Assembly: GCA_949358305.1 (NCBI GenBank)
Contig: OX442320.1
Coordinates: 2,420,501-2,484,500, forward strand
Origin: Strigamia acuminata
Lineage: Eukaryota > Arthropoda > Chilopoda > Geophilomorpha > Linotaeniidae
Direction of reading: 5' to 3'
Length of the DNA stretch: 64,000 nucleotides
Shown here: piece after piece, positions 7,487 through 54,873 of the stretch
Layout: every line of letters begins with the position of its first letter
Numbering within the stretch: position 1 is the first letter of the stretch
Made by a program: the position numbers and the translations under genes
Notes under the pieces: generated by a model
The model's database searches: none
Seen by the model: only the letters and a program-made list of their open reading frames with translations
What the model was told of the DNA's origin: nothing

Positions 7487-8942
7487 CCTTTTCGCGGATT
7501 GGCTTCCGCGAAATCCGCATTTCGGGGGTGACTATTCTGGGAATTCCGGGTGGACCATACTCTTCCGAAAAATGTCCGGGGTGGTGTTGGGAGTGTCGAT
7601 AGACTGTTTTGTGTCAAGGTTGCCAATTTTCATGTAAGTATTGGAAGGTTCATTTCTGTGCATTCTCATATATTTTTTTCACAGGAGCAACGAGGCGCGA
7701 TGAAGGGGGATCAAGCGAGAGTGAATAAAATAAACTCGTTTTTGTCTCAAATGCGCGTTTGCGTTTGTAAATTTGGTTGTCTTGCAACGCGGTGGCGCGT
7801 TTGAGTTTCGTGTTGCGATACAAACACGCACGGGTGCGTATTGGAGTCGTAAACGACTTTCTGTCGCAATGCGATCGCGTATTTGACAAATTTCTGCAGA
7901 TTTTTGCCAATATTTGACAATTTTCAGACAAATTTCAATTAATTTTAGAAATTTTTGAGAGATTTCAATAAAAGTTTGAGGAATTTCTTATGCTGACGCT
8001 AAAATGCCAAAAGGAGTCTTAACTCAGAAGAGCACCTTTCCGACCACTTAGGTGTCGGAAAAGCACTTCCAAAGGTCGCAAAACGTGCTCTACGCGTTTT
8101 TTGACACTAGAACGGTCGAAAACGAGTCTAAAACTGCTAAGCTGGCGCCTGTAACTTGGCGCATTCGCTGGGTCGCTCGAAAATGAGATTCGAGCGAACC
8201 GAAACCTATGAGAGAAACGCGCCGGCGGAAATATTCGTTTTTACCAATGAATACTTAATAAATCTTCATGGGAATTTAATCCCAATCTACTGTAGGCTTA
8301 GGAACCTTGAATACCAAATAAAAACAAAGGAGCAAAGGCGGGAAACAAAGAACAAGGGCCCGACGCCCGTAAATCACCAAAATGGCTATCTGCCAGACAC
8401 GCTAGTGGCCTTGAGCCACTTCTAACTTCGTTTTCGAGGTCGTGGGTCTCGAAAACGACTAAACCGAGTGGTGGGAACGATTCTCCGAGGTCTTTTTAGT
8501 CAATGTCGCCCAAAACCCGAATCAACAAGCTAACTTTCAACGAGAAACGAAGACTGGAGCCGAATGCGGTGATAAGCGCTCATTCCAGACTCGTGTAAGC
8601 GATCTCCGCTTAAAGCCAGTTGCTCTGAGCAGACGACGCAATCGCTTACCAAGGAAAAAGACGGGTTTATGGGCTCAAAACCCGACGAAACACTTAAACA
8701 GGATCCAGAAATTACCAAGCGAGTTGGTAAGCTAAACTAAAACTGTAAAATAAGTTGGGGACTTGGTAAAATGCGAGTCTCTCAAACTTTTGTTGCGTCC
8801 TGCTCGCAACACGCGCGATGTACGCGCGTGGCCGCGTGTTGAACGTGCGCACTACGCGCAAGAACCGTACAAACCGAGGTAAAACGAATTAAACACATAT
8901 CTAATGCAAAAACAATTATTAAATACATCATTCTTGTTGCTG
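7487..8942. repeat. Unique left end of C1
   Basis: Starts with a subterminal hairpin, TTCGCGGA-TTGGCT-TCCGCGAA (7491-7512), and further GCGGA/TCCGC words. At 7571-7710 there is a possible short gene fragment with a 51-nt intron (GTAAGT at 7634, TTTTTTTCACAG ending 7684). From about 7870 to 8180 the sequence resembles the arm unit in inverse orientation, heavily degraded. The whole segment recurs at 43298-44753, nearly unchanged. No substantial protein is encoded. Confidence 0.7.
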
Positions 8943-11900
8943 TTTGCAAACTTGCAAAACTTGCACCGAATTTGGGCAATTTTTTACAAATTTCAGCAGA
9001 TTTTTGTCTATATTTGACAAATTTCAGCAGATTTCCTCAATCCTCAAACATTTGCTGATATTTCTCAAACATTTTCTAAAATTAATTGAAATCTGTCTGA
9101 AATTTGTCTTGAATGTGTCAAATATTGTCAAAAATCCGTGGAAATTTGTCAAATACTGGCAAAAATCCATGTAAATTTGTCAAAAATTGCCATAATTTGG
9201 TGCAAATTGTGTTAGATATTGGAAAAATTTATTTTAACGCTTCCAACGCGCCAGTAAATCGCGCGTGCACACGCGTGGATTTTTCGTCATAGTTGGATGC
9301 GCGCAAACCTCACGTAACTTGCGCCAAAACTTGGCAATTTTTGACAAATTTTAGCAGATTTTTGCCAGTATTTGACAAATTTCCACTGATTTTTGACAAT
9401 ATTTGACCCAACAACTGCGCCACGTTCCAGGCGCCGGTTTAGGCATTTTAGACCCGTTTTAGACCGTTTTAGATGGCGAAAACGTTCTCTCCATCATTTT
9501 CTACCCCTGGGTGAGGTTTTCAGCGTTCATGATTGATGAAAAAGCTGTTTTCTAACTAGCTGTCCTATTGCTAGTTTTGGCGTCAGGTTTTAGCAACTTT
9601 CCGATCCGACTCTGTCGTCTGCACGACCTCCAAGACTGCTTTAGGGTTAATTTGAGTCAAATAGTTCATTCTGGGGGTTGTTTTGGGTTTTTTACAAGTG
9701 TGTTTTTGTAGTTTTTATTGGTTTCAAACATTGTCAATTCTTTATACAAGTGTAACTTTCATTTCTCTGTATTTTGAGAACTTTGCATTGCAGCAAAGTT
9801 CATTTCTTGCCCCTTAATTATTGTGTAATTGTTGGTTTTCAAGCCCGTTTTTTAACAATAACTTTATTTGAAGTGCCTATTGTTTCAGGCACGTGCTTCC
9901 ACGTGCCTTTTATTGTTGAGCAATTTCTTGGGCAGTTGCGCTCCTGTTGCTAGCATTGCCGCGCGTTCTCCGCGCGCGTACTCGCGTTTCGCATCACACA
10001 CATTCGGATTCGATGGCCTATCGCGGCGGCACATTGTGTGGCATAGCGCGGCAGGTTGCAATTGCTAATGCTACGGTCGACGGCGATTCGCATGCGCTAT
10101 CCGCTGCATCAAACCCCAAATACCGATAAAAAATCGCAGAAAACACTAATCCCGACCCAAAAACCGCCAAAATTACCCTCAACACACGCCAACAACCTTC
10201 CACCACTTAAATTACACCGGAAAAAAACAATTTCAAACCGAAAAATCAACAAAAAAGGCCAAAAAAATATTGCAAACAAAGAGAAAAGATCAATTATCGA
10301 GGCAAATCCCCACCACAAAACAACGCATCGCCGGTATACACTTAAGCGTACAGTGCACAACACTACTGTTTATTTTCAATGATCCAATAAATAAAATTTG
10401 AAACAAAGTTGAGTGGAATTGTACGTTTCTTGTATATTAAAGTTTTTATTTTGTTTGTTTACACTTAATTTTTTTTTTCCATCATAGAATGGCGACTCGA
10501 TACTTTTGTAGCTCGAATTCACTTCGTAAACGTGGTCGGTGTTCATCACGCGTCAATGCGCTCGTGCAATAGTATAGGCGCGCATACGATTTGATGCGCG
10601 CAAAACTTGCAAAACTTGCACGGAATTTGGGCAATTTTTGACAAATTTCAGCAGATTTTTGCCTGTATTTGACAAATTTCAGAAGATTTTTGCCTATATT
10701 TGACAAATTTCAGAAGATTTCCTCAATCCTCAAACATTTGCTGAAATTTCTCATAAAATTTCTAAAATTAATTGAAATCTGTCTGAAATTTGTCTGGAAT
10801 TTGTCAAATATTGTCAAAAATCCGTGGAAATTTGTCAAATACTGGCAAAAATCCATGTAAATTTGTCAAAAATTGCCATAATTTGGTGCAAATTGTGTTA
10901 GATATTGGAAAAATTTATTTTAACGCTTCCAACGCGCCAGTAAATCGCGCGTGCACACGCGTGGATTTTTCGTCATAGTTGGATGCGCGCAAACCTCACG
11001 TAACTTGCGCCAAAACTTGGCAATTTTTGACAAATTTCAGCAGATTTTTGCCAGTATTTGACAAATTTCCACTGATTTTTGACAATATTTGACCCAACAA
11101 CTGCGCCACGTTCCAGGCGCCGGTTTAGGCATTTTAGACCCGTTTTAGACCGTTTTAGATGGCGAAAACGTTCTCTCCATCATTTTCTACCCCTGGGTGA
11201 GGTTTTCAGCGTTCATGATTGATGAAAAAGCTGTTTTCTAACTAGCTGTCCCATTGCTAGTTTTGGCGTCAGGTTTTAGCAACCTTCCGATCCGACTCTG
11301 TCGTCTGCACGACCTCCAAGACTGTTTTAGGGTTAATTTGAGTCAAATAATTCATTCTGGGGGTTGTTTTGGGTTTTTTACAAGTGTGTTTTTGTAGTTT
11401 TTATTGGTTTCAAACATTGTCAATTCTTTATACAAGTGTAACTTTCATTTCTCTGTATTTTGAGAACTTTGCATTGCAGCAAAGTTCATTTCTTGCCCCT
11501 TAATTATTGTGTAATTGTTGGTTTTCAAGCCCGTTTTTTAACAATAACTTTATTTGAAGTGCCTATTGTTTCAGGCACGTGCTTCCACGTGCCTTTTATT
11601 GTTGAGCAATTTCTTGGGCAGTTGCGCTCCTGTTGCTAGCATTGCCGCGCGTTCTCCGCGCGCGTACTCGCGTTTCGCATCACACACATTCGGATTCGAT
11701 GGCCTATCGCGGCGGCACATTGTGTGGCATAGCGCGGCAGGTTGCAATTGCTAATGCTACGGTCGACGGCGATTCGCATGCGCTATCCGCTGCATCAAAC
11801 CCCAAATACCGATAAAAAATCGCAGAAAACACTAATCCCGACCCAAAAACCGCCAAAATTACCCTCAACACACGCCAACAACCTTCCACCACTTAAATTA

Positions 11901-14900
11901 CACCGGAAAAAAACAATTTCAAACCGAAAAATCAACAAAAAAGGCCAAAAAAATATTGCAAACAAAGAGAAAAGATCAATTATCGAGGCAAATCCCCACC
12001 ACAAAACAACGCATCGCCGGTATACACTTAAGCGTACAGTGCACAACACTACTGTTTATTTTCAATAATCCAATAAATAAAATTTGAAACAAAGTTGAGT
12101 GGAATTGTACGTTTCTTGTATATTAAAGTTTTTATTTTGTTTGTTTACACTTAATTTTTTTTTTCCATCATAGAATGGCGACTCGATACTTTTGTAGCTC
12201 GAATTCACTTCGTAAACGTGGTCGGTGTTCATCACGCGTCAATGCGCTCGTGCAATAGTATAGGCGCGCATACGATTTGATGCGCGCAAAACTTGCAAAA
12301 CTTGCACGGAATTTGGGCAATTTTTGACAAATTTCAGCAGATTTTTGCCTGTATTTGACAAATTTCAGAAGATTTTTGCCTATATTTGACAAATTTCAGA
12401 AGATTTCCTCAATCCTCAAACATTTGCTGAAATTTCTCATAAAATTTCTAAAATTAATTGAAATCTGTCTGAAATTTGTCTGGAATTTGTCAAATATTGT
12501 CAAAAATCCGTGGAAATTTGTCAAATACTGGCAAAAATCCATGTAAATTTGTCAAAAATTGCCATAATTTGGTGCAAATTGTGTTAGATATTGGAAAAAT
12601 TTATTTTAACGCTTCCAACGCGCCAGTAAATCGCGCGTGCACACGCGTGGATTTTTCGTCATAGTTGGATGCGCGCAAACCTCACGTAACTTGCGCCAAA
12701 ATTTGGCAATTTTTGACAAATTTCAGCAGATTTTTGCCAGTATTTGACAAATTTCCACTGATTTTTGACAATATTTGACCCAACAACTGCGCCACGTTCC
12801 AGGCGCCGGTTTAGGCATTTTAGACCCGTTTTAGACCGTTTTAGATGGCGAAAACGTTCTCTCCATCATTTTCTACCCCTGGGTGAGGTTTTCAGCGTTC
12901 ATGATTGATGAAAAAGCTGTTTTCTAACTAGCTGTCCCATTGCTAGTTTTGGCGTCAGGTTTTAGCAACCTTCCGATCCGACTCTGTCGTCTGCACGACC
13001 TCCAAGACTGTTTTAGGGTTAATTTGAGTCAAATAATTCATTCTGGGGGTTGTTTTGGGTTTTTTACAAGTGTGTTTTTGTAGTTTTTATTGGTTTCAAA
13101 CATTGTCAATTCTTTATACAAGTGTAACTTTCATTTCTCTGTATTTTGAGAACTTTGCATTGTAGCAAAGTTCATTTCTTGCCCCTTAATTATTGTGTAA
13201 TTGTTGGTTTTCAAGCCCGTTTTTTAACAATAACTTTATTTGAAGTGCCTATTGTTTCAGGCACGTGCTTCCACGTGCCTTTTATTGTTGAGCAATTTCT
13301 TGGGCAGTTGCGCTCCTGTTGCTAGCATTGCCGCGCGTTCTCCGCGCGCGTACTCGCGTTTCGCATCACACACATTCGGATTCGATGGCCTATCGCGGCG
13401 GCACATTGTGTGGCATAGCGCGGCAGGTTGCAATTGCTAATGCTACGGTCGACGGCGATTCGCATGCGCTATCCGCTGCATCAAACCCCAAATACCGATA
13501 AAAAATCGCAGAAAACACTAATCCCGACCCAAAAACCGCCAAAATTACCCTCAACACACGCCAACAACCTTCCACCACTTAAATTACACCGGAAAAAAAC
13601 AATTTCAAACCGAAAAATCAACAAAAAAGGCCAAAAAAATATTGCAAACAAAGAGAAAAGATCAATTATCGAGGCAAATCCCCACCACAAAACAACGCAT
13701 CGCCGGTATACACTTAAGCGTACAGTGCACAACACTACTGTTTATTTTCAATGATCCAATAAATAAAATTTGAAACAAAGTTGAGTGGAATTGTACGTTT
13801 CTTGTATATTAAAGTTTTTATTTTGTTTGTTTACACTTAATTTTTTTTTTCCATCATAGAATGGCGACTCGATACTTTTGTAGCTCGAATTCACTTCGTA
13901 AACGTGGTCGGTGTTCATCACGCGTCAATGCGCTCGTGCAATAGTATAGGCGCGCATACGATTTGATGCGCGCAAAACTTGCAAAACTTGCACGGAATTT
14001 GGGCAATTTTTGACAAATTTCAGCAGATTTTTGCCTGTATTTGACAAATTTCAGAAGATTTTTGCCTATATTTGACAAATTTCAGAAGATTTCCTCAATC
14101 CTCAAACATTTGCTGAAATTTCTCATAAAATTTCTAAAATTAATTGAAATTTGTCTGAAATTTGTCTGGAATTTGTCAAATATTGTCAAAAATCCGTGGA
14201 AATTTGTCAAATACTGGCAAAAATCCATGTAAATTTGTCAAAAATTGCCATAATTCGGTGCAAATTGTGTTAGATATTGGAAAAATTTATTTTAACGCTT
14301 CCAACGCGCCAGTAAATCGCGCGTGCACACGCATGGATTTTTCGTCATAGTTGGATGCGCGCAAACCTCACGTAACTTGCGCCAAAATTTGGCAATTTTT
14401 GACAAATTTCAGCAGATTTTTGCCAGTATTTGACAAATTTCCACTGATTTTTGACAATATTTGACCCAACAACTGCGCCACGTTCCAGGCGCCGGTTTAG
14501 GCATTTTAGACCCGTTTTAGACCGTTTTAGATGGCGAAAACGTTCTCTCCATCATTTTCTACCCCTGGCTGAGGTTTTCAGCGTTCATGATTGATGAAAA
14601 AGCTGTTTTCTAACTAGCTGTCCCATTGCTAGTTTTGGCGTCAGGTTTTAGCAACCTTCCGATCCGACTCTGTCGTCTGCACGACCTCCAAGACTGTTTT
14701 AGGGTTAATTTGAGTCAAATAATTCATTCTGGGGGTTGTTTTGGGTTTTTTACAAGTGTGTTTTTGTAGTTTTTATTGGTTTCAAACATTGTCAATTCTT
14801 TATACAAGTGTAACTTTCATTTCTCTGTATTTTGAGAACTTTGCATTGCAGCAAAGTTCATTTCTTGCCCCTTAATTATTGTGTAATTGTTGGTTTTCAA

Positions 14901-15123
14901 GCCCGTTTTTTAACAATAACTTTATTTGAAGTGCCTATTGTTTCAGGCACGTGCTTCCACGTGCCTTTTATTGTTGAGCAATTTCTTGGGCAGTTGCGCT
15001 CCTGTTGCTAGCATTGCCGCGCGTTCTCCGCGCGCGTACTCGCGCGTTTCGCATCACACACATTCGGGTTCAATGGCCTATCGCGGCGGCACATTGTGTG
15101 GCATAGCGCGGCACGTTGCAATT
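8943..15123 (+). repeat. Left arm of C1: tandem 1686-bp units
   Basis: About 3.7 copies of a 1686-bp unit; equivalent points fall at 9868, 11554, 13240 and 14926. Each unit contains short TTGACAAATTTCAGCAG-type subrepeats, GC-rich palindromic words (GCGCGTGCACACGCG), a perfect 9-bp hairpin AGGCACGTG-CTTC-CACGTGCCT, a second hairpin AACTTTGC/GCAAAGTT, and an A-rich segment with AATAAA. Short ORFs of 60-108 codons repeat with the unit but show no coding signature. The unit nearest the centre carries its own variants (GGGTTCAATGG for GGATTCGATGG) and leaves the repeat after TTGCAATT. Confidence 0.9.
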
Positions 15124-15453
15124 ACGTGACGTGGCACGTTGCTGTTACGTGACGCGATAGCCAGTATTTAAGCAGGGGATTCCATCATCGTTTACACAAA
15201 TGCGCATTGCAACGTGGAGGCGCATTCGAGTCCTTTTCCCAAGCGTTGAAAAAGGACAAAACTCGTATTCGATTCGAAAGCGAATCGAATACGATTTTTG
15301 TCCTTTTTCAACGCAAAATTGTATTCGATTCGCTTTCGAATCGAATACGAGTTTTGCCTTTCTTCAACGCGAAATCGTATTCGACTCGTTTTCGAGTCGA
15401 ATGCGAATTTTGCCCTTCTTCAACGCGAAATCGTATTCGACTCGTTTTCGAGT
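15124..15453. repeat. Palindromic centre of C1, left portion
   Basis: Begins with duplicated TTACGTGACG and a TATA-like TATTTAA (15165-15171). It then enters repeats built from TCGTATTCGA/TCGATACGA-type words with a 56-bp period, each unit containing a hairpin such as CGACTCG-TTTT-CGAGTCG. Cut at 15453 by element B; the array resumes after GAGT at 26730. Confidence 0.85.
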
Positions 15454-16274
15454 TGTGGTGACCCAGTTGGATAAGTGTCCCCCCAGGGCGGATACTTGTC
15501 CTATGAGTCACTATGATTAAAGAGTCGTTCCCCCCCGAGTTGGCTCCACCTCCCCATGGCAGGTGTGTGCCCCGAGGGGGAGGAAGCGGCTGGTGGTCAG
15601 CCCCCATTGGTTGATCGCCGGCCCTTCACCCCACTGCATAAAAGGCTGTGTTTCCCGCCTAAAGACAGAACTTACACAAACGACACCAAGAACACAGCAA
15701 CTACCTCACCGTCAGGCCAACTTCAACTACAAGTTAGGATTGATCGAGGATCGCTGAGTAAAGTGCAAACTGTAACTCTCACGAAGTCACTTGCGAGCTA
15801 TTCCTGCGAAAGCACGAGAATAGCCCTTGTGAAATCACCCAGAATAATCGCCCAGACGATTATTCGCCGAAGTAAGTGTCCGAGTGCTTTGTAGGGAACC
15901 CCAAAGTTCCTAGACGAGGCCTCTGCGACGCTAAACCAAAACCTAGACAACAGGCACGGATAGAAGACTCGAAAGAGCATTCCACCGCGTCCGTGAAGAC
16001 GAATCCGTGACGAATTAACGACAACTCGAGACGCCGCCTTTGTTCCGCCGACCACGCGGAATCGACGACGCCATCTTGAGAAATCCTTTGTTCGACGCTG
16101 ACCACGTCGACTCTAGAATTATTACTGAGTGTATTTTAAAGGCATAAAGCCTGGTGAATAAATTACCTGTTTATTTACATACATTTGGTATTCATTTGGG
16201 TATTTACATAATTGATCACAGGTAAAGTATTACACGTTAGCGCTATTTAAACCTATACCAAGTAGGACGCGACA
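15454..16274 (+). repeat. 5' LTR of element B
   Basis: An 821-bp LTR, TGTGGTGACC...GCGACA, repeated at 25905-26725. It contains an inverted CCAAT box (ATTGG, 15606-15610) and a TATA-like ATAAAAGG (15638-15645). The R motif GGATTGATCGAGGATCG (15737-15753) is shared with A. Hairpins include GCTATTC/GAATAGC (15797-15824), GAATAATCG-CCCAGA-CGATTATTC (15842-15865) and TCGACG/CGTCGA. The poly(A) hairpin GTGAATAAA-ttacctg-TTTATTTAC is at 16154-16178. Confidence 0.95.
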
Positions 16275-16276
16275 CG

Positions 16277-16294
16277 TGGGGGCCTGGCCGGGAT
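16277..16294 (+). promoter_or_regulatory. Primer-binding site of B, tRNA-Pro type
   Basis: TGGGGGCCTGGCCGGGAT starts 2 bp after the LTR, the same offset as in A, and differs from A's site at three positions. Its ends match the 3' end of a proline tRNA. Confidence 0.72.
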
Positions 16295-16368
16295 TTAGAA
16301 ATAAATCTCAAATCTGAACTTGTGATCTCTCAATAAGATAACCCAAACCGTAGAATTACCGAAAGAAA

Positions 16369-19300
16369 ATGTCAGACAAAGATGAGCAATCCACGTCTGA
16401 CACCGAGCAGAGAATGCCCGAGAAGGGAAAAAGGACCTCCGACTACCACCTGAGATCGGATGGTCCCGTCCCTGAAATGTCCGCAAAGGCGAAAGCCCGA
16501 GCGAATAAAAGGAGAGCGAAGGCGCAGAAAGAGGAGCAAGCTGCATCGCTCGCGGCCCTAGACGGGCCAGAGCGAGAGCGGGTTCCCTTGAATATGCAAC
16601 CCTTCGAAGATACCGATCCGGAAGCCATAGAAAATCGAGAAGAAATTCGCGAGATATCACCAGGACGAGTATCGATATTGATGACCGAGGAGACGGATGA
16701 AGCTCCGAAAAGAACGGTCACGATCGGCACAGACCCATCGCCACCAACGGCTCAGACGTCCGTAAAACAAACCCCACGGAAAAACGACGGCGGGACCCCG
16801 ATAACCCCCCGAGTTACGGCGAGTCCTGCAGTTGTTTCCTTCGAAGTATCTCACCTAATTCGGTTGACGCAGCAAGCTGCCCAGCTAAAAGCGATGATAG
16901 ACATTCCAGTAGGAACGTCAGTCTGGGAATCGATTACCCTACTCACTGACGCTATCTGTGCGGCACAAGCCCCGACGCCGGTCGCAAGACCAGCAGCGGA
17001 GACGCCCATGCCCCAGGTAACGCCCAGTGACACCGGAGGTTTCGCGCCAGACCCCAACCGAACACTTCACGAATCCAGAGAGAAGGCCCGCGAGGAAGCC
17101 AGACAAGAAGCGACTAGTCGCCAACGAAGGCTGAGCGCAGAGCGGCGAGAACTCTGGAAGGAAGAGGAAGAAAGGGAGCAACGCGAGAGAAGAACCACCG
17201 AGAGAACAGAGAAACTGGTCCAAAAAATGAGGGAAGAACGAGAAGCTAAAATTCGAAAAGAATGGAACGCAACAGTAGAAGGGCGACATCGAGAAGCTCA
17301 AGAGTACGAGGACCAATTTCAAGCGCTAATAGCTCAAAGAAAAACAGAAAAACTACAAATGTTGCGAAAAGAGGCCATTCTACAACATCAGAAATGGGAA
17401 GAACAACATCGCGAGAGGTTGAGAGAAGAGGAAGCCAGAAAAGAAAAAGAACAGTTTCTGAAAGAGAAAGAAGAGTGGGATCGAGTCAGATGGACCGAAG
17501 AGTACAAAGCGAAGAAACAAGCTATAATAGATGAGCAAAAAAGATGGGAAGCCGAAAACTGGGAGAAGGAGACAGAAAAGTTCCAGAAAGAGTACGCACA
17601 AGACGTCTCGGACAGGAAGAAAAATGAAGAAAACCTGAAACGGAAACCAGAACCCCCCAGCGGCTCTGATACCGACACAGGAGAAGGTGCAACAAAGCCG
17701 GCAAAAACGGCGAAAAGGGGGAAATCTCAAAAGAGAGACGAGTCGGTCCCAAAAACAAAGGACCGTCACCCCTCAAAAAGATCCGAGACGGGAGCAGCCA
17801 TCGACGCGTTACTCGAAAAGAAAAACGCAAATAAAAATCGGGAACGCCCCGAAAGCGAGGAAAACAGATGGCATTCTTTTTACGAGAACAACGACGGAGG
17901 GGAGCCGCCGCCATCCGGAGGCTCGAAACAGAAGAAGGCTGGCGGAGAGACCCCACCGAGAGGGCCGAGGTTTCACCCCCAAGGAGATCCCTCCGAGCCC
18001 TCCGATTCGTCGGACGACGACCATCCGAGTCGACCGTCTACAGGGAGGAGTCAAGAAGACAGCGATGGGCACCGGTCGAACCGGCCGAATGCTTCAGACC
18101 GCTCCTCCCGGAGCTCCAACCCTCGTTCGGAGGAAGGGAACTTTCAGGACTCATCTGGCCGACATTACACGATGTCTGAGCTAGGCCGAGCCCTGCTGAA
18201 CTCTTTCAGAAGAGAAGGAATCGATCTAGGCCATCCAGGCGACGAACATAATCGCGCTGGAGAGAGGGTTAAGCGTAAATATGGCGTACGAAACGAACCA
18301 AGCAGCGAAGCCACGGGTAACATCCGTTGGCAACACTACATACAAACACGATTCGACGGTTCGTGGAAGGCCGGAGACCGCTTCCTAGACGAAGTAATGC
18401 GTATCAAGAAAGCGACAAAAGCCACCGTCGCCGACATGCTAACCCACGGTCTAGTGGAGCTAACCACGGGGTCAGCTCGAGAATGGTATCAGGGACTGAA
18501 AAACCCAACCTGGGACGATTTTCTCGTCCGTTTCGATCTCCGATACGGCGAGACTCCAGACGAGATCAGTAACAAATTACGTGGTCTACGGCAAGCCCCA
18601 GGAGAAACATTAGCCGACTACGACGCCCGAGCGAAACTCCTGTTTGCAAGAGCGCCGTACGAAATAAACCCCGCTGGTTTTACGATGATCTTTTACGGAG
18701 GATTATCGGCCCACTCGCAAAGAATTCTGCTAGACATGCGTGCACCCCGCACTGGCGATTACCAAGATGTCAGTAACTATCTTCTAACAAACACGTTAGA
18801 AATAGAACAGCGGTATTACGCCACTCTGCCCCCGGAGGAAGCTGACGCGCACGAGAAACGGTTGCAGACGAGCGCCGAACGTCACAAGACCTCAGAGAAA
18901 TTAATGAGGCCAAGTGAATATTTGAGCGGCATAATGAGTCTCACCGAAGCATCCTTCGGACGAATGCTGACGCCTAAAGCAGGCAGTATTCTTCCAGCCA
19001 ACCCGATAGCTGCCCCAAAGAAAGCACCGGCAGCAACGGCGATGCAGGTGACCTCGACGGACTCCACCCAGATGGAGAAAGTCGAAGAGACAACACCTCT
19101 CGCCACGGCTAAAGAAGAGGAGCCAGCATCAAGCGACGAGGAAGCCCTAAATGAGCACCTCGAAAACTTGTCGACGGGATGCGACGATCAAGGTCCCTAT
19201 TTGCACCATGCACACCGGGCCTTAGCAATCGCACAATTCAGAGCACACGTGCAGGCAACAAAAGCGAGAGGGGCATTGGGAGGAAAAAGACGATTCCCGA

Positions 19301-19509: not shown

Positions 19510-19527
19510 ATTCAGCTTCGTCTGCGC
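19476..19527 (+). promoter_or_regulatory. -1 ribosomal frameshift site, gag to pol (B)
   Basis: The heptamer A-AAA-AAC (19476-19482) is in gag phase (GCA AAA AAC). A 6-nt spacer TCCCAA precedes a 9-bp stem, GCGCAGGCG (19489-19497) with CGTCTGCGC (19519-19527), containing one G-U pair. The -1 frame is open from here through pol with no ATG near its start, so frameshifting is the only obvious route. Sequence differs from A but architecture and spacing are identical. Confidence 0.88.
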
Positions 19528-19580
19528 CAGCCGCGGAAATTAAAAAGAAGAAATATCACACTGGACCCGCAGGTCATGCC

Positions 19581-25857: not shown

Positions 25858-25892
25858 GAAAATTGAGATCGCTCCGATCCGAGATCGAAGCT

Positions 25893-36927: not shown

Positions 36928-36962
36928 CGATGTGCAATGTCGATATTAACAGTTCGATGAAA

Positions 36963-43164: not shown

Positions 43165-43243
43165 GGATCAGCATATAGGCGGCCGTAATGTTAGAAATGG
43201 GGTCCCTTTCGCACTCCGCAAAATCCGCATGCGCGCCATAAGG
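43165..43243. repeat. Terminal 79 bp of C1 after D
   Basis: Matches 54795-54873, the end of C2. It contains three GCGGA/TCCGC words and the terminus GCGCGCCATAAGG, followed by TTAA. Confidence 0.85.
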
Positions 43244-43297
43244 TTAAGCACTCCAGAAGCGTGTGTCGCACGCGTCGGCGCGCCGCTAAAAACATAT
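43244..43297. other. TTAA plus 50-bp linker between C1 and C2
   Basis: TTAA (43244-43247), then a 50-bp GC-rich unique segment with GTGTGTCGCACGCG and GGCGCGCC words, then C2 begins with CCTT at 43298. The base before C2 is not TTAA (ACATAT), so C2 did not enter by a simple TTAA insertion. Confidence 0.8.
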
Positions 43298-44753
43298 CCT
43301 TTTCGCGGATTGGCTTCCGCGAAATCCGCATTTCGGGGGTGACTATTCTGGGAATTCCGGGTGGACCATACTCTTCCGAAAAATGTCCGGGGTGGTGTTG
43401 GGAGTGTCGATAGACTGTTTTGTGTCAAGGTTGCCAATTTTCATGTAAGTATTGGAAGGTTCATTTCTGTGCATTCTCATATATTTTTTTCACAGGAGCA
43501 ACGAGGCGCGATGAAGGGGGATCAAGCGAGAGTGAATAAAATAAACTCGTTTTTGTCTCAAATGCGCGTTTGCGTTTGTAAATTTGGTTGTCTTGCAACG
43601 CGGTGGCGCGTTTGAGTTTCGTGTTGCGATACAAACACGCACGGGTGCGTATTGGAGTCGTAAACGACTTTCTGTCGCAATGCGATCGCGTATTTGACAA
43701 ATTTCTGCAGATTTTTGCCAATATTTGACAATTTTCAGACAAATTTCAATTAATTTTAGAAATTTTTGAGAGATTTCAATAAAAGTTTGAGGAATTTCTT
43801 ATGCTGACGCTAAAATGCCAAAAGGAGTCTTAACTCAGAAGAGCACCTTTCCGACCACTTAGGTGTCGGAAAAGCACTTCCAAAGGTCGCAAAACGTGCT
43901 CTACGCGTTTTTTGACACTAGAACGGTCGAAAACGAGTCTAAAACTGCTAAGCTGGCGCCTGTAACTTGGCGCATTCGCTGGGTCGCTCGAAAATGAGAT
44001 TCGAGCGAACCGAAACCTATGAGAGAAACGCGCCGGCGGAAATATTCGTTTTTACCAATGAATACTTAATAAATCTTCATGGGAATTTAATCCCAATCTA
44101 CTGTAGGCTTAGGAACCTTGAATACCAAATAAAAACAAAGGAGCAAAGGCGGGAAACAAAGAACAAGGGCCCGACGCCCGTAAATCACCAAAATGGCTAT
44201 CTGCCAGACACGCTAGTGGCCTTGAGCCACTTCTAACTTCGTTTTCGAGGTCGTGGGTCTCGAAAACGACTAAACCGAGTGGTGGGAACGATTCTCCGAG
44301 GTCTTTTTAGTCAATGTCGCCCAAAACCCGAATCAACAAGCTAACTTTCAACGAGAAACGAAGACTGGAGCCGAATGCGGTGATAAGCGCTCATTCCAGA
44401 CTCGTGTAAGCGATCTCCGCTTAAAGCCAGTTGCTCTGAGCAGACGACGCAATCGCTTACCAAGGAAAAAGACGGGTTTATGGGCTCAAAACCCGACGAA
44501 ACACTTAAACAGGATCCAGAAATTACCAAGCGAGTTGGTAAGCTAAACTAAAACTGTAAAATAAGTTGGGGACTTGGTAAAATGCGAGTCTCTCAAACTT
44601 TTGTTGCGTCCTGCTCGCAACACGCGCGATGTACGCGCGTGGCCGCGTGTTGAACGTGCGCACTACGCGCAAGAACCGTACAAACCGAGGTAAAACGAAT
44701 TAAACACATATCTAATGCAAAAACAATTATTAAATACATCATTCTTGTTGCTG

Positions 44754-47562
44754 TTTGCAAACTTGCAAAACTTGCACCGAATTTGGGCAATTTTTTACAA
44801 ATTTCAGCAGATTTTTGTCTATATTTGACAAATTTCAGCAGATTTCCTCAATCCTCAAACATTTGCTGATATTTCTCAAACATTTTCTAAAATTAATTGA
44901 AATCTGTCTGAAATTTGTCTTGAATGTGTCAAATATTGTCAAAAATCCGTGGAAATTTGTCAAATACTGGCAAAAATCCATGTAAATTTGTCAAAAATTG
45001 CCATAATTTGGTGCAAATTGTGTTAGATATTGGAAAAATTTATTTTAACGCTTCCAACGCGCCAGTAAATCGCGCGTGCACACGCGTGGATTTTTCGTCA
45101 TAGTTGGATGCGCGCAAACCTCACGTAACTTGCGCCAAAACTTGGCAATTTTTGACAAATTTTAGCAGATTTTTGCCAGTATTTGACAAATTTCCACTGA
45201 TTTTTGACAATATTTGACCCAACAACTGCGCCACGTTCCAGGCGCCGGTTTAGGCATTTTAGACCCGTTTTAGACCGTTTTAGATGGCGAAAACGTTCTC
45301 TCCATCATTTTCTACCCCTGGGTGAGGTTTTCAGCGTTCATGATTGATGAAAAAGCTGTTTTCTAACTAGCTGTCCTATTGCTAGTTTTGGCGTCAGGTT
45401 TTAGCAACCTTCCGATCCGACTCTGTCGTCTGCACGACCTCCAAGACTGCTTTAGGGTTAATTTGAGTCAAATAGTTCATTCTGGGGGTTGTTTTGGGTT
45501 TTTTACAAGTGTGTTTTTGTAGTTTTTATTGGTTTCAAACATTGTCAATTCTTTATACAAGTGTAACTTTCATTTCTCTGTATTTTGAGAACTTTGCATT
45601 GCAGCAAAGTTCATTTCTTGCCCCTTAATTATTGTGTAATTGTTGGTTTTCAAGCCCGTTTTTTAACAATAACTTTATTTGAAGTGCCTATTGTTTCAGG
45701 CACGTGCTTCCACGTGCCTTTTATTGTTGAGCAATTTCTTGGGCAGTTGCGCTCCTGTTGCTAGCATTGCCGCGCGTTCTCCGCGCGCGTACTCGCGTTT
45801 CGCATCACACACATTCGGATTCGATGGCCTATCGCGGCGGCACATTGTGTGGCATAGCGCGGCAGGTTGCAATTGCTAATGCTACGGTCGACGGCGATTC
45901 GCATGCGCTATCCGCTGCATCAAACCCCAAATACCGATAAAAAATCGCAGAAAACACTAATCCCGACCCAAAAACCGCCAAAATTACCCTCAACACACGC
46001 CAACAACCTTCCACCACTTAAATTACACCGGAAAAAAACAATTTCAAACCGAAAAATCAACAAAAAAGGCCAAAAAAATATTGCAAACAAAGAGAAAAGA
46101 TCAATTATTGAGGCAAATCCCCACCACAAAACAACGCATCGCCGGTATACACTTAAGCGTACAGTGCACAACACTACTGTTTATTTTCAATGATCCAATA
46201 AATAAAATTTGAAACAAAGTTGAGTGGAATTGTACGTTTCTTGTATATTAAAGTTTTTATTTTGTTTGTTTACACCTAATTTTTTTTTTCCATCATAGAA
46301 TGGCGACTCGATACTTTTGTAGCTCGAATTCACTTCGTAAACGTGGTCGGTGTTCATCACACGTCAATGCGCTCGTGCAATAGTATAGGCGCGCATACGA
46401 TTTGATGCGCGCAAAACTTGCAAAACTTGCACGGAATTTGGGCAATTTTTGACAAATTTCAGAAGATTTTTGCCTGTATTTGACAAATTTCAGAAGATTT
46501 TTGCCTATATTTGACAAATTTCAGAAGATTTCCTCAATCCTCAAACATTTGCTGAAATTTCTCATAAAATTTCTAAAATTAATTGAAATCTGTCTGAAAT
46601 TTGTCTGGAATTTGTCAAATATTGTCAAAAATCCGTGGAAATTTGTCAAATACTGGCAAAAATCCATGTAAATTTGTCAAAAATTGCCATAATTCGGTGC
46701 AAATTGTGTTAGATATTGGAAAAATTTATTTTAACGCTTCCAACGCGCCAGTAAATCGCGCGTGCACACGCATGGATTTTTTGTCATAGTTGGATGCGCG
46801 CAAACCTCACGTAACTTGCGCCAAAATTTGGCAATTTTTGACAAATTTCAGCAGATTTTTGCCAGTATTTGACAAATTTCCACTGATTTTTGACAATATT
46901 TGACCCAACAACTGCGCCACGTTCCAGGCGCCGGTTTAGGCATTTTAGACCCGTTTTAGACCGTTTTAGATGGCGAAAACGTTCTCTCCATCATTTTCTA
47001 CCCCTGGCTGAGGTTTTCAGCGTTCATGATTGATGAAAAAGCTGTTTTCTAACTAGCTGTCCCATTGCTAGTTTTGGCGTCAGGTTTTAGCAACCTTCCG
47101 ATCCGACTCTGTCGTCTGCACGACCTCCAAGACTGTTTTAGGGTTAATTTGAGTCAAATAATTCATTCTGGGGGTTGTTTTGGGTTTTTTACAAGTGTGT
47201 TTTTGTAGTTTTTATTGGTTTCAAACATTGTCAATTCTTTATACAAGTGTAACTTTCATTTCTCTGTATTTTGAGAACTTTGCATTGCAGCAAAGTTCAT
47301 TTCTTGCCCCTTAATTATTGTGTAATTGTTGGTTTTCAAGCCCGTTTTTTAACAATAACTTTATTTGAAGTGCCTATTGTTTCAGGCACGTGCTTCCACG
47401 TGCCTTTTATTGTTGAGCAATTTCTTGGGCAGTTGCGCTCCTGTTGCTAGCATTGCCGCGCGTTCTCCGCGCGCGTACTCGCGCGTTTCGCATCACACAC
47501 ATTCGGGTTCAATGGCCTATCGCGGCGGCACATTGTGTGGCATAGCGCGGCACGTTGCAATT
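44754..47562 (+). repeat. Left arm of C2: tandem 1686-bp units
   Basis: About 1.7 units (equivalent points 45679 and 47365). The outer unit carries the same private variants as the outermost unit of C1 (for example CTGTCCTATTG), and the inner one the same centre-proximal variants. Confidence 0.9.
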
Positions 47563-49532
47563 ACGTGACGTGGCACGTTGCTGTTACGTGACGCGATAGC
47601 CAGTATTTAAGCAGGGGATTCCATCATCGTTTACACAAATGCGCATTGCAACGTGGAGGCGCATTCGAGTCCTTTTCCCAAGCGTTGAAAAAGGACAAAA
47701 CTCGTATTCGATTCGAAAGCGAATCGAATACGATTTTTGTCCTTTTTCAACGCAAAATTGTATTCGATTCGCTTTCGAATCGAATACGAGTTTTGCCCTT
47801 CTTCAACGCGAAATCGTATTCGACTCGTTTTCGAGTCGAATGCGAATTTTGCCCTTCTTCAACGCGAAATCGTATTCGACTCGTTTTCGAGTCGAGTACG
47901 AGTTTTGCCCTTCTTCAACGCGAAATCGTATTCGACTCGTTTTCGAGTCGAGTACGAGTTTTGCCCTTCTTCAACGCGAAATCGTATTCGACTCGTTTTC
48001 GAGTCGAGTACGAGTTTTGCCCTTCTTCAACGCGAAATCGTATTCGACTCGTTTTCGAGTCGAGTACGAGTTTTGCCCTTCTTCAACGCGAAATCGTATT
48101 CGACTCGTTTTTCGATTACGATCAAAATACGAGCTCGTATACAACGCGTATACGAGCGAGTGGAAATCATCGACCATCTCGAATACGACTCGAATTCGAT
48201 TCGTATTCGATTCGAATACGATTCGAATACGAATACGATCAAAATACGAACTCGTAACAACTCGAATACGAGATAGTCGATGACCCGTTCCCGGACTTTG
48301 ACTCGTACGACTCGTATTCGAGATGTATTCGAGATGTATTCGAATCGTATTCGAGTCGCATTCGAGATGGTCGATGATTTCCACTCGCTCGTATACGCGT
48401 TGTATACGAGCTCGTATTTTGATCGTAATCGTAAACGAATCGTTTACAAGTCGTATACAAGTTGTATACGACGTGTATACACCTCGTATACGAACGAAGT
48501 TTGTGAAAACACAATTTCCAAATAAGACGTATGTGACTACTATGTGTTTTCATGTCGTAGTAAGTATCCGGTGGATTTTCCAAACTTCGTTCGTATACGA
48601 GGTGTATACACGTCGTATACGACTTGTATACGACTTGTAAACGATTCGTTTACGATTACGATCAAAATACGAGCTCGTATACAACGCGTATACGAGCGAG
48701 TGGAAATCATCGACCATCTCGAATGCGACTCGAATACGATTCGAATACATCTCGAATACATCTCGAATACGAGTCGTACGAGTCAAAGTCCGGGAACGGG
48801 TCATCGACTATCTCGTATTCGAGTTGTTACGAGTTCGTATTTTGATCGTATTCGTATTCGAATCGAATTCGAATCGTATTCGAATCGAATACGAATTGAA
48901 TTCGAGTCGTATTCGAGATGGTCGATGATTTCCACTCGCTCGTATACGCGTTGTATACGAGCTCGTATTTTGATCGTAATCGAAAAACGAGTCGAATACG
49001 ATTTCGCGTTGAAGAAGGGCAAAACTCGTACTCGACTCGAAAACGAGTCGAATACGATTTCGCGTTGAAGAAGGGCAAAACTCGTACTCGACTCGAAAAC
49101 GAGTCGAATACGATTTCGCGTTGAAGAAGGGCAAAACTCGTACTCGACTCGAAAACGAGTCGAATACGATTTCGCGTTGAAGAAGGGCAAAACTCGTACT
49201 CGACTCGAAAACGAGTCGAATACGATTTCGCGTTGAAGAAGGGCAAAATTCGCATTCGACTCGAAAACGAGTCGAATACGATTTCGCGTTGAAGAAGGGC
49301 AAAACTCGTATTCGATTCGAAAGCGAATCGAATACAATTTTGCGTTGAAAAAGGACAAAAATCGTATTCGATTCGCTTTCGAATCGAATACGAGTTTTGT
49401 CCTTTTTCAACGCTTGGGAAAAGGACTCGAATGCGCCTCCACGTTGCAATGCGCATTTGTGTAAACGATGATGGAATCCCCTGCTTAAATACTGGCTATC
49501 GCGTCACGTAACAGCAACGTGCCACGTCACGT
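47563..49532. repeat. Palindromic centre of C2
   Basis: A 1970-bp inverted repeat with its axis near 48550. On each side, from outside in: duplicated ACGTGACG boxes, a TATA-like word (TATTTAA 47604-47610; TTAAATA 49485-49491), CGAATCG hairpins, five to six 56-bp units and half of a 551-bp unit. Three forward frames are open together over about 47640-48260, giving apparent proteins of up to 214 residues made of RIRVLPFFNAKSYSTRF-like repeats. I regard these as by-products of stop-free repeats, not genes. Confidence 0.88.
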
Positions 49533-52500
49533 AATTGCAACGTGCCGCGCTATGCCACACAATGTGCCGCCGCGATAGGCCATTGAACCCGAATGTGTGT
49601 GATGCGAAACGCGCGAGTACGCGCGCGGAGAACGCGCGGCAATGCTAGCAACAGGAGCGCAACTGCCCAAGAAATTGCTCAACAATAAAAGGCACGTGGA
49701 AGCACGTGCCTGAAACAATAGGCACTTCAAATAAAGTTATTGTTAAAAAACGGGCTTGAAAACCAACAATTACACAATAATTAAGGGGCAAGAAATGAAC
49801 TTTGCTGCAATGCAAAGTTCTCAAAATACAGAGAAATGAAAGTTACACTTGTATAAAGAATTGACAATGTTTGAAACCAATAAAAACTACAAAAACACAC
49901 TTGTAAAAAACCCAAAACAACCCCCAGAATGAATTATTTGACTCAAATTAACCCTAAAACAGTCTTGGAGGTCGTGCAGACGACAGAGTCGGATCGGAAG
50001 GTTGCTAAAACCTGACGCCAAAACTAGCAATGGGACAGCTAGTTAGAAAACAGCTTTTTCATCAATCATGAACGCTGAAAACCTCAGCCAGGGGTAGAAA
50101 ATGATGGAGAGAACGTTTTCGCCATCTAAAACGGTCTAAAACGGGTCTAAAATGCCTAAACCGGCGCCTGGAACGTGGCGCAGTTGTTGGGTCAAATATT
50201 GTCAAAAATCAGTGGAAATTTGTCAAATACTGGCAAAAATCTGCTGAAATTTGTCAAAAATTGCCAAATTTTGGCGCAAGTTACGTGAGGTTTGCGCGCA
50301 TCCAACTATGACAAAAAATCCATGCGTGTGCACGCGCGATTTACTGGCGCGTTGGAAGCGTTAAAATAAATTTTTCCAATATCTAACACAATTTGCACCG
50401 AATTATGGCAATTTTTGACAAATTTACATGGATTTTTGCCAGTATTTGACAAATTTCCACGGATTTTTGACAATATTTGACAAATTCCAGACAAATTTCA
50501 GACAGATTTCAATTAATTTTAGAAATTTTATGAGAAATTTCAGCAAATGTTTGAGGATTGAGGAAATCTTCTGAAATTTGTCAAATATAGGCAAAAATCT
50601 TCTGAAATTTGTCAAATACAGGCAAAAATCTTCTGAAATTTGTCAAAAATTGCCCAAATTCCGTGCAAGTTTTGCAAGTTTTGCGCGCATCAAATCGTAT
50701 GCGCGCCTATACTATTGCACGAGCGCATTGACGTGTGATGAACACCGACCACGTTTACGAAGTGAATTCGAGCTACAAAAGTATCGAGTCGCCATTCTAT
50801 GATGGAAAAAAAAAATTAGGTGTAAACAAACAAAATAAAAACTTTAATATACAAGAAACGTACAATTCCACTCAACTTTGTTTCAAATTTTATTTATTGG
50901 ATCATTGAAAATAAACAGTAGTGTTGTGCACTGTACGCTTAAGTGTATACCGGCGATGCGTTGTTTTGTGGTGGGGATTTGCCTCAATAATTGATCTTTT
51001 CTCTTTGTTTGCAATATTTTTTTGGCCTTTTTTGTTGATTTTTCGGTTTGAAATTGTTTTTTTCCGGTGTAATTTAAGTGGTGGAAGGTTGTTGGCGTGT
51101 GTTGAGGGTAATTTTGGCGGTTTTTGGGTCGGGATTAGTGTTTTCTGCGATTTTTTATCGGTATTTGGGGTTTGATGCAGCGGATAGCGCATGCGAATCG
51201 CCGTCGACCGTAGCATTAGCAATTGCAACCTGCCGCGCTATGCCACACAATGTGCCGCCGCGATAGGCCATCGAATCCGAATGTGTGTGATGCGAAACGC
51301 GAGTACGCGCGCGGAGAACGCGCGGCAATGCTAGCAACAGGAGCGCAACTGCCCAAGAAATTGCTCAACAATAAAAGGCACGTGGAAGCACGTGCCTGAA
51401 ACAATAGGCACTTCAAATAAAGTTATTGTTAAAAAACGGGCTTGAAAACCAACAATTACACAATAATTAAGGGGCAAGAAATGAACTTTGCTGCAATGCA
51501 AAGTTCTCAAAATACAGAGAAATGAAAGTTACACTTGTATAAAGAATTGACAATGTTTGAAACCAATAAAAACTACAAAAACACACTTGTAAAAAACCCA
51601 AAACAACCCCCAGAATGAATTATTTGACTCAAATTAACCCTAAAACAGTCTTGGAGGTCGTGCAGACGACAGAGTCGGATCGGAAGGTTGCTAAAACCTG
51701 ACGCCAAAACTAGCAATGGGACAGCTAGTTAGAAAACAGCTTTTTCATCAATCATGAACGCTGAAAACCTCAGCCAGGGGTAGAAAATGATGGAGAGAAC
51801 GTTTTCGCCATCTAAAACGGTCTAAAACGGGTCTAAAATGCCTAAACCGGCGCCTGGAACGTGGCGCAGTTGTTGGGTCAAATATTGTCAAAAATCAGTG
51901 GAAATTTGTCAAATACTGGCAAAAATCTGCTGAAATTTGTCAAAAATTGCCAAATTTTGGCGCAAGTTACGTGAGGTTTGCGCGCATCCAACTATGACAA
52001 AAAATCCATGCGTGTGCACGCGCGATTTACTGGCGCGTTGGAAGCGTTAAAATAAATTTTTCCAATATCTAACACAATTTGCACCGAATTATGGCAATTT
52101 TTGACAAATTTACATGGATTTTTGCCAGTATTTGACAAATTTCCACGGATTTTTGACAATATTTGACAAATTCCAGACAAATTTCAGACAAATTTCAATT
52201 AATTTTAGAAATTTTATGAGAAATTTCAGCAAATGTTTGAGGATTGAGGAAATCTTCTGAAATTTGTCAAATATAGGCAAAAATCTTCTGAAATTTGTCA
52301 AATACAGGCAAAAATCTGCTGAAATTTGTCAAAAATTGCCCAAATTCCGTGCAAGTTTTGCAAGTTTTGCGCGCATCAAATCGTATGCGCGCCTATACTA
52401 TTGCACGAGCGCATTGACGCGTGATGAACACCGACCACGTTTACGAAGTGAATTCGAGCTACAAAAGTATCAAGTCGCCATTCTATGATGGAAAAAAAAA

Positions 52501-52908
52501 ATTAAGTGTAAACAAACAAAATAAAAACTTTAATATACAAGAAACGTACAATTCCACTCAACTTTGTTTCAAATTTTATTTATTGGATCATTGAAAATAA
52601 ACAGTAGTGTTGTGCACTGTACGCTTAAGTGTATACCGGCGATGCGTTGTTTTGTGGTGGGGATTTGCCTCGATAATTGATCTTTTCTCTTTGTTTGCAA
52701 TATTTTTTTGGCCTTTTTTGTTGATTTTTCGGTTTGAAATTGTTTTTTTCCGGTGTAATTTAAGTGGTGGAAGGTTGTTGGCGTGTGTTGAGGGTAATTT
52801 TGGCGGTTTTTGGGTCGGGATTAGTGTTTTCTGCGATTTTTTATCGGTATTTGGGGTTTGATGCAGCGGATAGCGCATGCGAATCGCCGTCGACCGTAGC
52901 ATTAGCAA
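49533..52908 (-). repeat. Right arm of C2: inverted 1686-bp units
   Basis: Two units in inverse orientation (equivalent points 49730 and 51416), ending at the same GCATTAGCAA junction as in C1. Confidence 0.9.
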
Positions 52909-54873
52909 GTGCGCGCGCAAGTTAAATGTGTACAGGACTGTGAGAAAATAAAACGTGTGTGGAAGAGTAAATGTTCTTTGGTGATCGCCATGAGTTCGTA
53001 CTTTGTCGTGGGCGCGAAATGTGTGTGATATATATGCTACTATGCGTGATGTAGCGCGTCCAAATGCGTACAGGTGTTCGACAGATGTGCCAGGGCTTCA
53101 CGTGCATACACGAAACATAAACATGAAGAAAACAGAAAAAACCGTTGTGTGTGATGTTTATAAAGACACATTACACAAAGAATACTACTCTTCATACAAA
53201 AAGCAATAAACTTTATACATATTGCAATAAACTTACAAAATGGTAAAAATAAAATACTGGAAAACATGGCCTTGAATAATAGTGGAAAACATGGCGTACT
53301 GCCTTGAATACCCCCTTGAATACGTCGCACCGCATCATCTCGCCTCACATCCCGCCTTGGTAATAAATAAACGCCCCGGCGTTTATTCGAGGCACATCAC
53401 CCACACCTCCCCGGCGTTCAAACGAGTAGCTGCGCGTATTTGACCCCGGTTTTTATTCTTTCAAATTGTCGTGTGTTTTCAAAGTTCTTAATTTGTTCAA
53501 AAACAAACAAAATGGCTATTTGTTGATTTTTAATTGATTTTATCGATTTCTGTTCGTTTTTTGCTGGTTTTTAATCGATTTTTCTGTATTTTTGATCAAT
53601 TTTTGCCAATTGTAATCGTTATTTGTCATTCTGAATTGATTATTGTCAGGTTTCAGTCGATTTTTGTCGATTTCTGATCAATGTTTATACATTTCTTATC
53701 ATTTTGTGTAGATTTCTGTTGAATTTTAATCATATTTCTTCGTTTTTATTCAATTTTTGTCCCATGCTCCGCGATCAGTTCGAATAATTGACACCATACT
53801 GTGCTTTTACTCATATTCAAGATGGCGTCGCAAACTCAAGGTCGAATTCCGCTGAATTCATTTATTGCGACTGTTTGCGCTCCATACATGCGAAAAGGAT
53901 TATGGGAAAAATCCTCAATGCAGGTCATTTTGGTGTCAAATGAGCGAGGAAGGCTGGAGATAAGGAATATTGGTGAAATTTCAAAAAAAAGCTAAACAAT
54001 CAAAATTTACATGAAGCTCAATTTTTCTAACTGGAAATGCATGTATCGTCAATTTCGGGATATTTTAGGGGTGAAATTGACTGGGAAGGGACCCCCACAT
54101 TCCCCATGCGTCAACGCGCGCGTTGACGAAATTCAAATCCAGGTTTTCACACAGCCCCACGTTATTTTCGGGTTCCAATTGCCGTATTGCCGTATTGCCT
54201 CAAATAAACGCCGGGGCGTTTATTAATTTTCATTAATTTTCCAGACCGGAAATGAGGCGAGGTGATGCGGTACGATGCAAAATTGCGAGATGTAGTTTGC
54301 TTTATTTGTTAAAACAAATTAGGCGTCACTAATTCACCTGTATTAGGGTTTCAATGTGTGAAATTTCAAAATTTATCGGTTCCGTCAAAACGCCATTGAA
54401 AAGTTACATTTTTATAACGTTTCAATGATGAAAACGGCCATTTTTGATGAAAAACAACCATTTTTTATAGAAAAAACGACGAAGAAAGCCATTTTCACTA
54501 TGAAAAATGGCTGAAAATGACCATTTTGACGACAAACGGCCATTTTTACTACGAAAAATGGCTAAAAATGCCACTTGAGTGAGTGCAAGTACATTTGGTG
54601 ATGTACTATCGCGAGCGCGCGCGTTTTTGTGCAGTACAATGTGCTGATTAAACCAACAGCATTATAGAGTGATTACATTGTTCATTTGTGTTTTTAAGTT
54701 ACAAAATGGTACAAAATCATAAAATAAACTTGTAAAGTGCAATTTCTGCGGATTGATCAAAATCCGCAAAATCCGCCGCAAAATTGCGAACAGGGGATCA
54801 GCATATAGGCGGCCGTAATGTTAGAAATGGGGTCCCTTTCGCACTCCGCAAAATCCGCATGCGCGCCATAAGG
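52909..54873. repeat. Unique right end of C2
   Basis: 1965 bp equivalent to 34452-36343 plus 43165-43243, without D. It includes the MITE-like element, the hairpin TGCGGATT-GATCAA-AATCCGCA (54747-54768), and the terminus AAGG|TTAA that borders A pol. Confidence 0.8.
53323..54278. mobile_element. Nested MITE-like element in the C2 right end
   Basis: Copy of 34866-35822 with a few differences (one base shorter in a C-run). Same terminal inverted repeats, and the exon-like ORF at 53822-53995. Confidence 0.6.

Follow-up and report, generated by a model that had tools for sequence, protein, structure and literature searches.

What is the 47-kb array of repeats that interrupts a retrotransposon of the centipede Strigamia acuminata, and how did it get there? 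The window, i.e., the whole stretch of 64,000 bp analysed here (contig OX442320.1, positions 2,420,501 to 2,484,500; C9:2420501-2484500 in our numbering), contains at 7487-54873 an interval which an earlier note described as a single giant foldback element flanked by TTAA and possibly belonging to a separate class. We consider it probable that the interval is instead a dimer that transposed recently, made up of two head-to-tail units of a passenger (subfamily I) which is non-autonomous and belongs to a giant piggyBac-like transposon of about 55 kb, referred to as G. To judge from the sequence, this is indicated by common ends and a common linker, TA-centred flanks that match in 23 of 40 insertions, an empty site in paralogues of the host retrotransposon and a transposase exon that at some loci lies at a near-constant distance from the right end. 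The genome scanned comprised 237,517,015 bases in 157 contigs.

The outer limits of the interval agree with the earlier description. TTAA is present on the left (7483-7486) and on the right (54874-54877), the outer tips being CCTT (from 7487) and AAGG (54870-54873). The insert resides in a Ty3-type long terminal repeat (LTR) retrotransposon, A, other copies of which have a single TTAA at the empty site. A 39-base pattern joining both flanks across one TTAA has 25 exact matches in the genome and 66 more that contain 1-3 mismatches, and these matches are interpreted as the paralogous empty site in relatives of A.

The interior consists of two units in the same orientation, copy 1 (7487-36343 and 43170-43243) and copy 2 (43298-54873), which are 17,655 and 11,576 bp long after removal of nested LTR elements by coordinates. 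Each unit begins with a unique left end (with tip region L), which is followed by 1686-bp units, a palindromic centre made up of 56-bp and 551-bp repeats, further 1686-bp units in inverted orientation and, finally, a unique right end (with tip region R); each has CCTT...AAGG tips. Where the two meet (43244-43297, + strand), the order is R - TTAA - 46-bp linker - ATAT - L. The unique left ends of the copies (about 1,460 bp) show no mismatches and one gap column, the right ones (34456-36343 vs 52913-54799, about 1,887 bp) two mismatches and one gap column, and the copies differ in length mainly by the number of arm and centre units.

The outer TTAA flanks and the long inverted-arm layout, both of them real, are what speaks for one 47-kb giant foldback element of a separate TTAA class. 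Such an element is ruled out by the complete internal ends with a linker, which is found at 70 places in the genome, by monomer loci elsewhere with one L and one R, and by the fact that B and C, two sequences nested in the interval, are LTR elements with their own target duplications; a unit of another subfamily (II) also lacks the left arm. We give this explanation next to no credence. Two independent side-by-side insertions by ordinary transposition would likewise leave L and R tips on both units, and piggyBac-type elements are able to insert near each other. However, the same linker and, where examined, the same ATAT precede the internal left tip at many loci, the internal left tip in the window has no TTAA, and the left ends within the dimer are identical. 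The linker is seen only beside pairs, in support of one ancestral joining. In view of its recurrence we reject independent insertions as very unlikely. Since the linker is common to other loci and the outer TTAA copies match, we infer that the dimer arrived as a dimer.

Further copies, for which the earlier note had proposed a search, number in the hundreds: with up to one mismatch, the left tip occurs at 349 and the right tip at 293 places. Exact tips are flanked by TTAA in 53 (left) and 168 (right) cases, and exact left tips by ATAT in 119. The listings comprised 100 places for each tip; 82 listed L and 94 listed R on contigs C1, C3 and C4 were used for pairing, with the listed C5 places left out. 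This gave at least 28 same-strand R-L junctions, the spacing being 55 in 27 of them and 61 in one. The linker was counted at its 70 places with up to three mismatches; in six more fetched junctions it is more diverged and of unchanged length, and a head-to-head locus (L035) carries the same linker. Loci among the matches listed resemble monomers, dimers or trimers, with units mostly of 11-20 kb and some longer ones which may include nested insertions.

Flanking bases were compared for 40 insertion pairs, a non-random set made of a first 20 (17 with TTAA on the left) and a second 20 from loci lacking an exact left TTAA. TA is central in 80 of 80 flanks. The four bases are identical in 23 pairs (17 TTAA, 2 TTAT, 2 CTAA, 1 TTAG and 1 TTAC); the mismatched pairs include L105/L106 and L107/L108, in which one flank lies inside another family copy and which are perhaps not single insertions. 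Seven of the 17 mismatched pairs have ATAT as their left flank. As ATAT also stands before every internal left tip examined, we infer that donor flanks can be carried over at transposition. The expectation that copies would be flanked by TTAA held in part: many are not (of 54 left tips outside junctions on C1, C3 and C4, among the matches listed, 16 have exact TTAA), while six non-TTAA insertions have matching 4-bp flanks. TTAA duplication was found at the window insertion and is relaxed across the family, and strict TTAA as a family-wide rule is ruled out by the differing pairs and the six identical non-TTAA ones. Target duplications of Foldback/Galileo elements are 7-9 bp long, so the earlier note was right to set the present 4-bp target apart from theirs. 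For piggyBac, TTAA was reported in 93% of integrations, with variants including CTAA and TTAG (PMC3983033).

Over 1,414 bp, one and the same left-end sequence is shared by the two window units and the two units of a dimer on C6. At positions 550 and 998 it carries two alleles that none of the other subfamily I left ends comparable base by base shows. The C6 units are each 14,949 bp long by coordinates. Among 19 multimers whose ends were resolved (arrays that lacked an end or had one inverted were left out), 4 of 21 pairs of adjacent units are of equal length (within 2 bp, nested insertions included) vs 0.24 expected, and 0 of 20,000 shuffles of units among multimers reached four; the other 17 pairs are unequal, as is the window dimer. 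Because of the identical left ends and the excess of equal-length neighbours, some multimers, on this evidence, contain units that were copied from one another, the linker lying between them. Such unit duplication can be explained both by unequal exchange in arrays and by the copying of a circular or concatemeric form.

Three loci show other arrangements of the ends. At C1:26326301-26381770, R-linker-L junctions on opposite strands face each other across a central segment that has a left tip on either side, which makes a very large palindrome. L146 (C1:66500780-66501700) is a satellite-like derivative in which the left end is repeated in tandem with a 382-bp period. L137 (C8:182060-182275) contains three consecutive linkers with a single ATAT between each; this fits unit excision and equally a 50-bp tandem duplication, and it is not taken as proof of excision.

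Satellite-like variation in unit numbers, the 382-bp tandem and the palindromic array favour the view that multimers and arms arose solely by recombination in the host, through segmental duplication or satellite growth, that the tips are relics and that only single units transpose. We consider it improbable. The window dimer lies between two copies of TTAA, other A copies show the empty site, and further multimers have identical outer flanks (e.g., C1:24.4, C1:33.4, C3:28.6 and C6:1.34 Mb). Moreover, the linker is older than the insertion, as it is common to many loci, and growth from a single inserted unit would require its later addition.

The autonomous piggyBac-like relative which the earlier note suggested looking for has a candidate with the same ends, namely G. 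The 131 PF13843 matches among scored candidates in the genome include a group (iii) with 43 first-exon matches. One exon of this group matches PF13843 with E 2e-21 and, weakly, piggyBat in PDB (E 0.0015); two coding blocks are above the Pfam cut-off, and a third, in one copy, scores 21.3 vs 22.4 bits. A single homologue of the exon was found, a 232-aa JGI protein with 47% identity over 72% of the query. On contig C154 an R-linker-L junction separates two group iii exons whose distance is 55.2 kb, the second exon lying 14,844 bp after the left tip. The distance from exon to R is 40,287, 40,330 and 40,382 bp at three loci and 30,960 and 31,081 bp at two others.

The C154 left end opens like subfamily II (90.8% over 1.1 kb), and from 4.65 kb after L onwards C154 has no match to subfamily I or II longer than 55 bp. 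A segment of G is found at L+4,651 (C154), L+4,707 (C46) and about L+4,018 (C1:64.78 Mb); the C46 and C154 versions are 100% identical over 251 bp, and their 56-bp offset is the size of one repeat. At C154 and C1:66.53 Mb the junction tips are slightly different (CCTTTCC, CATAGGG). Since near-equal exon-to-R distances at three loci are unlikely to arise by chance, we conclude that G is a defined giant candidate element of about 55 kb, with the same L and R ends and linker and a multi-exon piggyBac-type transposase. Given the relaxed yet matching 4-bp flanks and this candidate autonomous relative, we prefer to regard the interval as derived from a giant piggyBac-like family, rather than as the separate class suggested before.

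The DDE_Tnp_1_7 transposase linked to the ends is found in G and not in the window copies. Outside retroelements and repeat centres the latter contain no frame of at least 150 aa except one of 169 aa, present in both copies and without a Pfam match; the scan leaves room for shorter or spliced genes, and within its range it bears out the earlier statement that no transposase is encoded inside. In G, a coding-like frame beside the left end has no homologues at E 0.001, and nine frames of L152 and L154 match no Pfam family at its cut-off but the transposase. A GTAAGT...TTTTTTTCACAG stretch near the left end of copy 1 (7634-7684) is splice-like and is kept in subfamily II as GTGAGT...CACAG; perhaps it is a relic of a gene end.

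Several points weigh against the assignment to G and to piggyBac. Tips of the piggyBac superfamily begin with CCYT and generally, though not absolutely, have terminal inverted repeats (TIRs) of 12-19 bp (PMC2872659). No such repeats were found at the L and R tips, where the inverted match amounts to CCTT plus scattered bases, and a 16-bp subterminal motif that the tips share beyond CCTT is in direct, not inverted, orientation. Flanks differ in 17 of the 40 insertion pairs. Among the matches listed, a same-strand R lies within 60 kb downstream of 8 of the 43 group iii exons, and nine R ends are otherwise configured, four on the opposite strand and five upstream on the same strand, the latter in keeping with a tandem array; of the left ends within 45 kb of group iii, nine are in the expected configuration and seven in others. 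The G segment had no match at four of seven extra loci tested and was inverted at one. The shared segment at C1:25807014 (L+8,204 bp vs 8,180 bp at C154) was not counted; the +4.9 kb segment there is inverted. Because the usual inverted repeats are absent, the family is piggyBac-like rather than a standard member of piggyBac.

The missing inverted repeats also leave some room for mobilisation by a different superfamily that targets TTAA, such as Kolobok, in which case the linked piggyBac-type gene would be a bystander. Kolobok elements make TTAA duplications as well, and KolobokP forms multimers, yet their tips are 5'-RR..YY-3' (PMC9587614) as against 5'-CC..GG-3' here, and the DDE_Tnp_1_7 exon lies at a near-constant distance from R at three loci. 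We therefore hold this origin, too, to be improbable.

Other transposases of the genome were rejected as partners. Group ii (PF13843 positions 32-148, 52 matches) has nine left ends within 45 kb of its exons among the matches listed, one placed as expected and eight not. Group ii matches often come as two per contig, about 28-59 kb apart and unlinked to L/R ends (e.g., C74:11174 and 60198, C22:32742 and 89567, C140:15616 and 65889), and they perhaps represent another giant tandem family. Group i is a compact piggyBac of 2,981 bp with a 632-aa open frame, whose two copies (L149/L150, C1:6127587 and C1:22418151) are 99.97% identical; its ends (TTAACACTAG) differ from those studied here, which rules it out as a source.

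According to the scheme that we favour, the transposase of G would act in trans on the L and R tips, and whatever is bounded by an outer L on one side and an outer R on the other, be it one or several units, would be moved to TTAA or similar sites. The 46-bp linker would be part of the repeating unit, and multimers would form through unit duplication, either by unequal exchange or by copying of a circular or concatemeric form. Numbers of arm and centre units would drift through unequal exchange, shaping the foldback. A unit beside a linker could leave with its left four bases (ATAT) and thereby produce mismatched flanks such as ATAT/TTAA. A more far-reaching version, tentative and rather unlikely in our estimate, makes G an arthropod counterpart of Teratorn: an episome- or virus-like element of about 55 kb that would multiply in the form of head-to-tail concatemers with the linker as a joint and enter chromosomes by means of a piggyBac-type transposase. 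Subfamilies I and II would be its satellites, similar to defective genomes, keeping the palindromic centre as a candidate replication origin and spreading as multimers.

Subfamily II shares with subfamily I the first ~274 bp of L at ~91-92%. In the single subfamily II unit examined, L leads into 56-bp repeats and a 551-bp palindromic centre; then come a single arm unit and a right part that differs, and the left arm is missing. Thirty TTAA-flanked loci, five of which overlap with an earlier fetched set, were typed by their first 1.5 kb as subfamily I (8), subfamily II (19) or a further variant (3). Foldback arms, after which the earlier note named the element, are confined to one subfamily as far as examined; as the subfamily II unit has no left arm, they look like a secondary trait.

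The arms themselves are as first described, with 1686-bp units in opposite orientation around palindromic 56-bp and 551-bp repeats, and the units could be anchored on the + strand at 10058, 11744, 13430 and 45869 and on the - strand at 31083, 32769, 34455, 51226 and 52912. The inverted arms of copy 1 are 99.5% identical across 5,396 bp, and copy 2 has an inverted self-match of 7.66 kb at 97.8%, both far beyond chance. In copy 1, L and the unique left part (7487-8947, + strand) are followed by the left arm (8948-15123, + strand), with three full and one partial 1686-bp units, and by the first 56-bp repeats (15263-15453, + strand), which resume at 26726-27018. The centre (26726-29253) continues with the 551-bp palindromic repeats (27050-28851) and inverted 56-bp repeats; then come the right arm of three inverted units (29390-34455, - strand), the right unique part (34456-36343, + strand), broken by C, and R (43170-43243, + strand), with AAGG at its end. 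Copy 2 is made of L with the unique left part (43298-44758, + strand), arms and centre (44759-52912; left arm 44759-47562, centre with 56-bp and 551-bp repeats 47702-49393, right arm 49533-52912) and the right unique part with R (52913-54873, + strand), again ending in AAGG.

Of the nested elements, B (15454-26725, + strand) is a Ty3-type LTR retrotransposon with identical 821-bp LTRs and GAGT flanks, and C (36344-43164, - strand) is a copia-type one with identical 573-bp LTRs and GGATC flanks. The pol of C contains, between integrase and reverse transcriptase, a match to the methyl-CpG-binding domain PF01429 (38574-38717, - strand; E 3e-5, 24.0 bits vs a cut-off of 21). Their host's host, A (1630-60859, + strand; LTRs 1630-2258 and 60231-60859; CGCT flanks), splits together with its nested load a coding exon of an atlastin/GBP-type GTPase gene (1373-1629 and 60864-61764), with PF02263 matched on both sides. 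The interrupted GTPase has a single match in the protein collection, from Strigamia maritima (59% identity over 60% of the query). The order of insertion is A into the GTPase coding exon, the dimer into A, and afterwards B and C into the dimer; as the LTR pairs of A, B and C are each 100% identical, comparison of the repeats suggests that every step was recent.

Arm units are ~99% identical and the arrays are long, and four large scaffold ends (L062/C12, L064/C5, L057/C8 and L065/C4) lie within G sequence, 97.7-100% identical to the copies examined, all of which would be in keeping with an assembly product. The giant element seems to limit this assembly; TTAGG/CCTAA repeats occupy, wholly or partly, 4 of 20 contig-end stretches examined (L051, L058, L059 and L069). 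However, junctions and ends recur at many loci with differing unit lengths and flanks, nested B and C serve as unique anchors, and the published assembly is of 98-fold HiFi coverage with a quality value (QV) of 59.6 (PMC10556566). An artefact thus has very little probability, although the exact arm copy numbers could be wrong.

If the interval is a passenger dimer of G, fish are not the only hosts of giant piggyBac-like families, and the passengers of the present one also move as multimers with an invariant built-in linker. Formation of tandem arrays by a DNA transposon and cut-and-paste of tens of kb would become testable in one genome, and the transposon would be seen as a possible seed of satellite-like DNA and palindromes. 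Mixed flanks (ATAT/TTAA) would be natural evidence that the donor's four flanking bases travel with the transposon, as the hairpin model of piggyBac transposition allows.

Among known systems, large tandem piggyBac arrays that formed and were lost have reportedly been observed by Adelman et al. in 2004 in transgenic Aedes aegypti, i.e., with a transgenic construct and not, as here, in a natural family. Our search of open-access literature turned up neither a giant piggyBac element nor multimers with a constant linker in arthropods, and the words piggyBac and palindrom are not present in the main text of the S. maritima genome paper (PMC4244043). Pokey of Daphnia is likewise an arthropod piggyBac-type family with autonomous and miniature inverted-repeat (MITE) forms; it has a specific insertion site in ribosomal DNA, and the available parts of the papers do not mention constant-linker multimers (PMC3849761, PMC4912750). 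Foldback/Galileo and Tetris elements of Drosophila, Galileo being of the P superfamily, share with subfamily I long inverted arms of internal tandem repeats (PMC3573991, PMC4079207), whereas the left arm is absent from the subfamily II unit examined.

Coral CMITEs are also non-autonomous, with TTAA, CC[C/T]T tips and tandem arrays with alike intervening sequence, but they are small elements with 13-14 bp TIRs (PMC2872659). In contrast, the units described here are of 11-20 kb and have no TIR beyond CCTT, and their invariant 46-bp linker is common to several subfamilies and to the candidate autonomous element. KolobokP composite-like elements have a related TTAA biology, joint-sharing multimers and parts suggested to be separately mobile; they differ in their RR..YY tips, a long terminal direct repeat as the joint and a Kolobok transposase (PMC9587614), while the joint of the present family is a short linker. 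Teratorn and its relatives, of 41-182 kb, are known from teleost fish and have 18-bp TIRs and a herpesvirus fusion (PMC10175614, PMC6431247), whereas G occurs in an arthropod, measures ~55 kb and is compared on size, ends and transposase only. The features of Teratorn that recur here are its giant size, the piggyBac-like transposase, tips of the form CCYT, a preference for TTAA, and the presence of long inverted repeats as well as internal ends (PMC10175614, PMC6431247), and the combination of giant size and a piggyBac-type transposase is found in G itself, with its 55.2-kb tandem period on C154.

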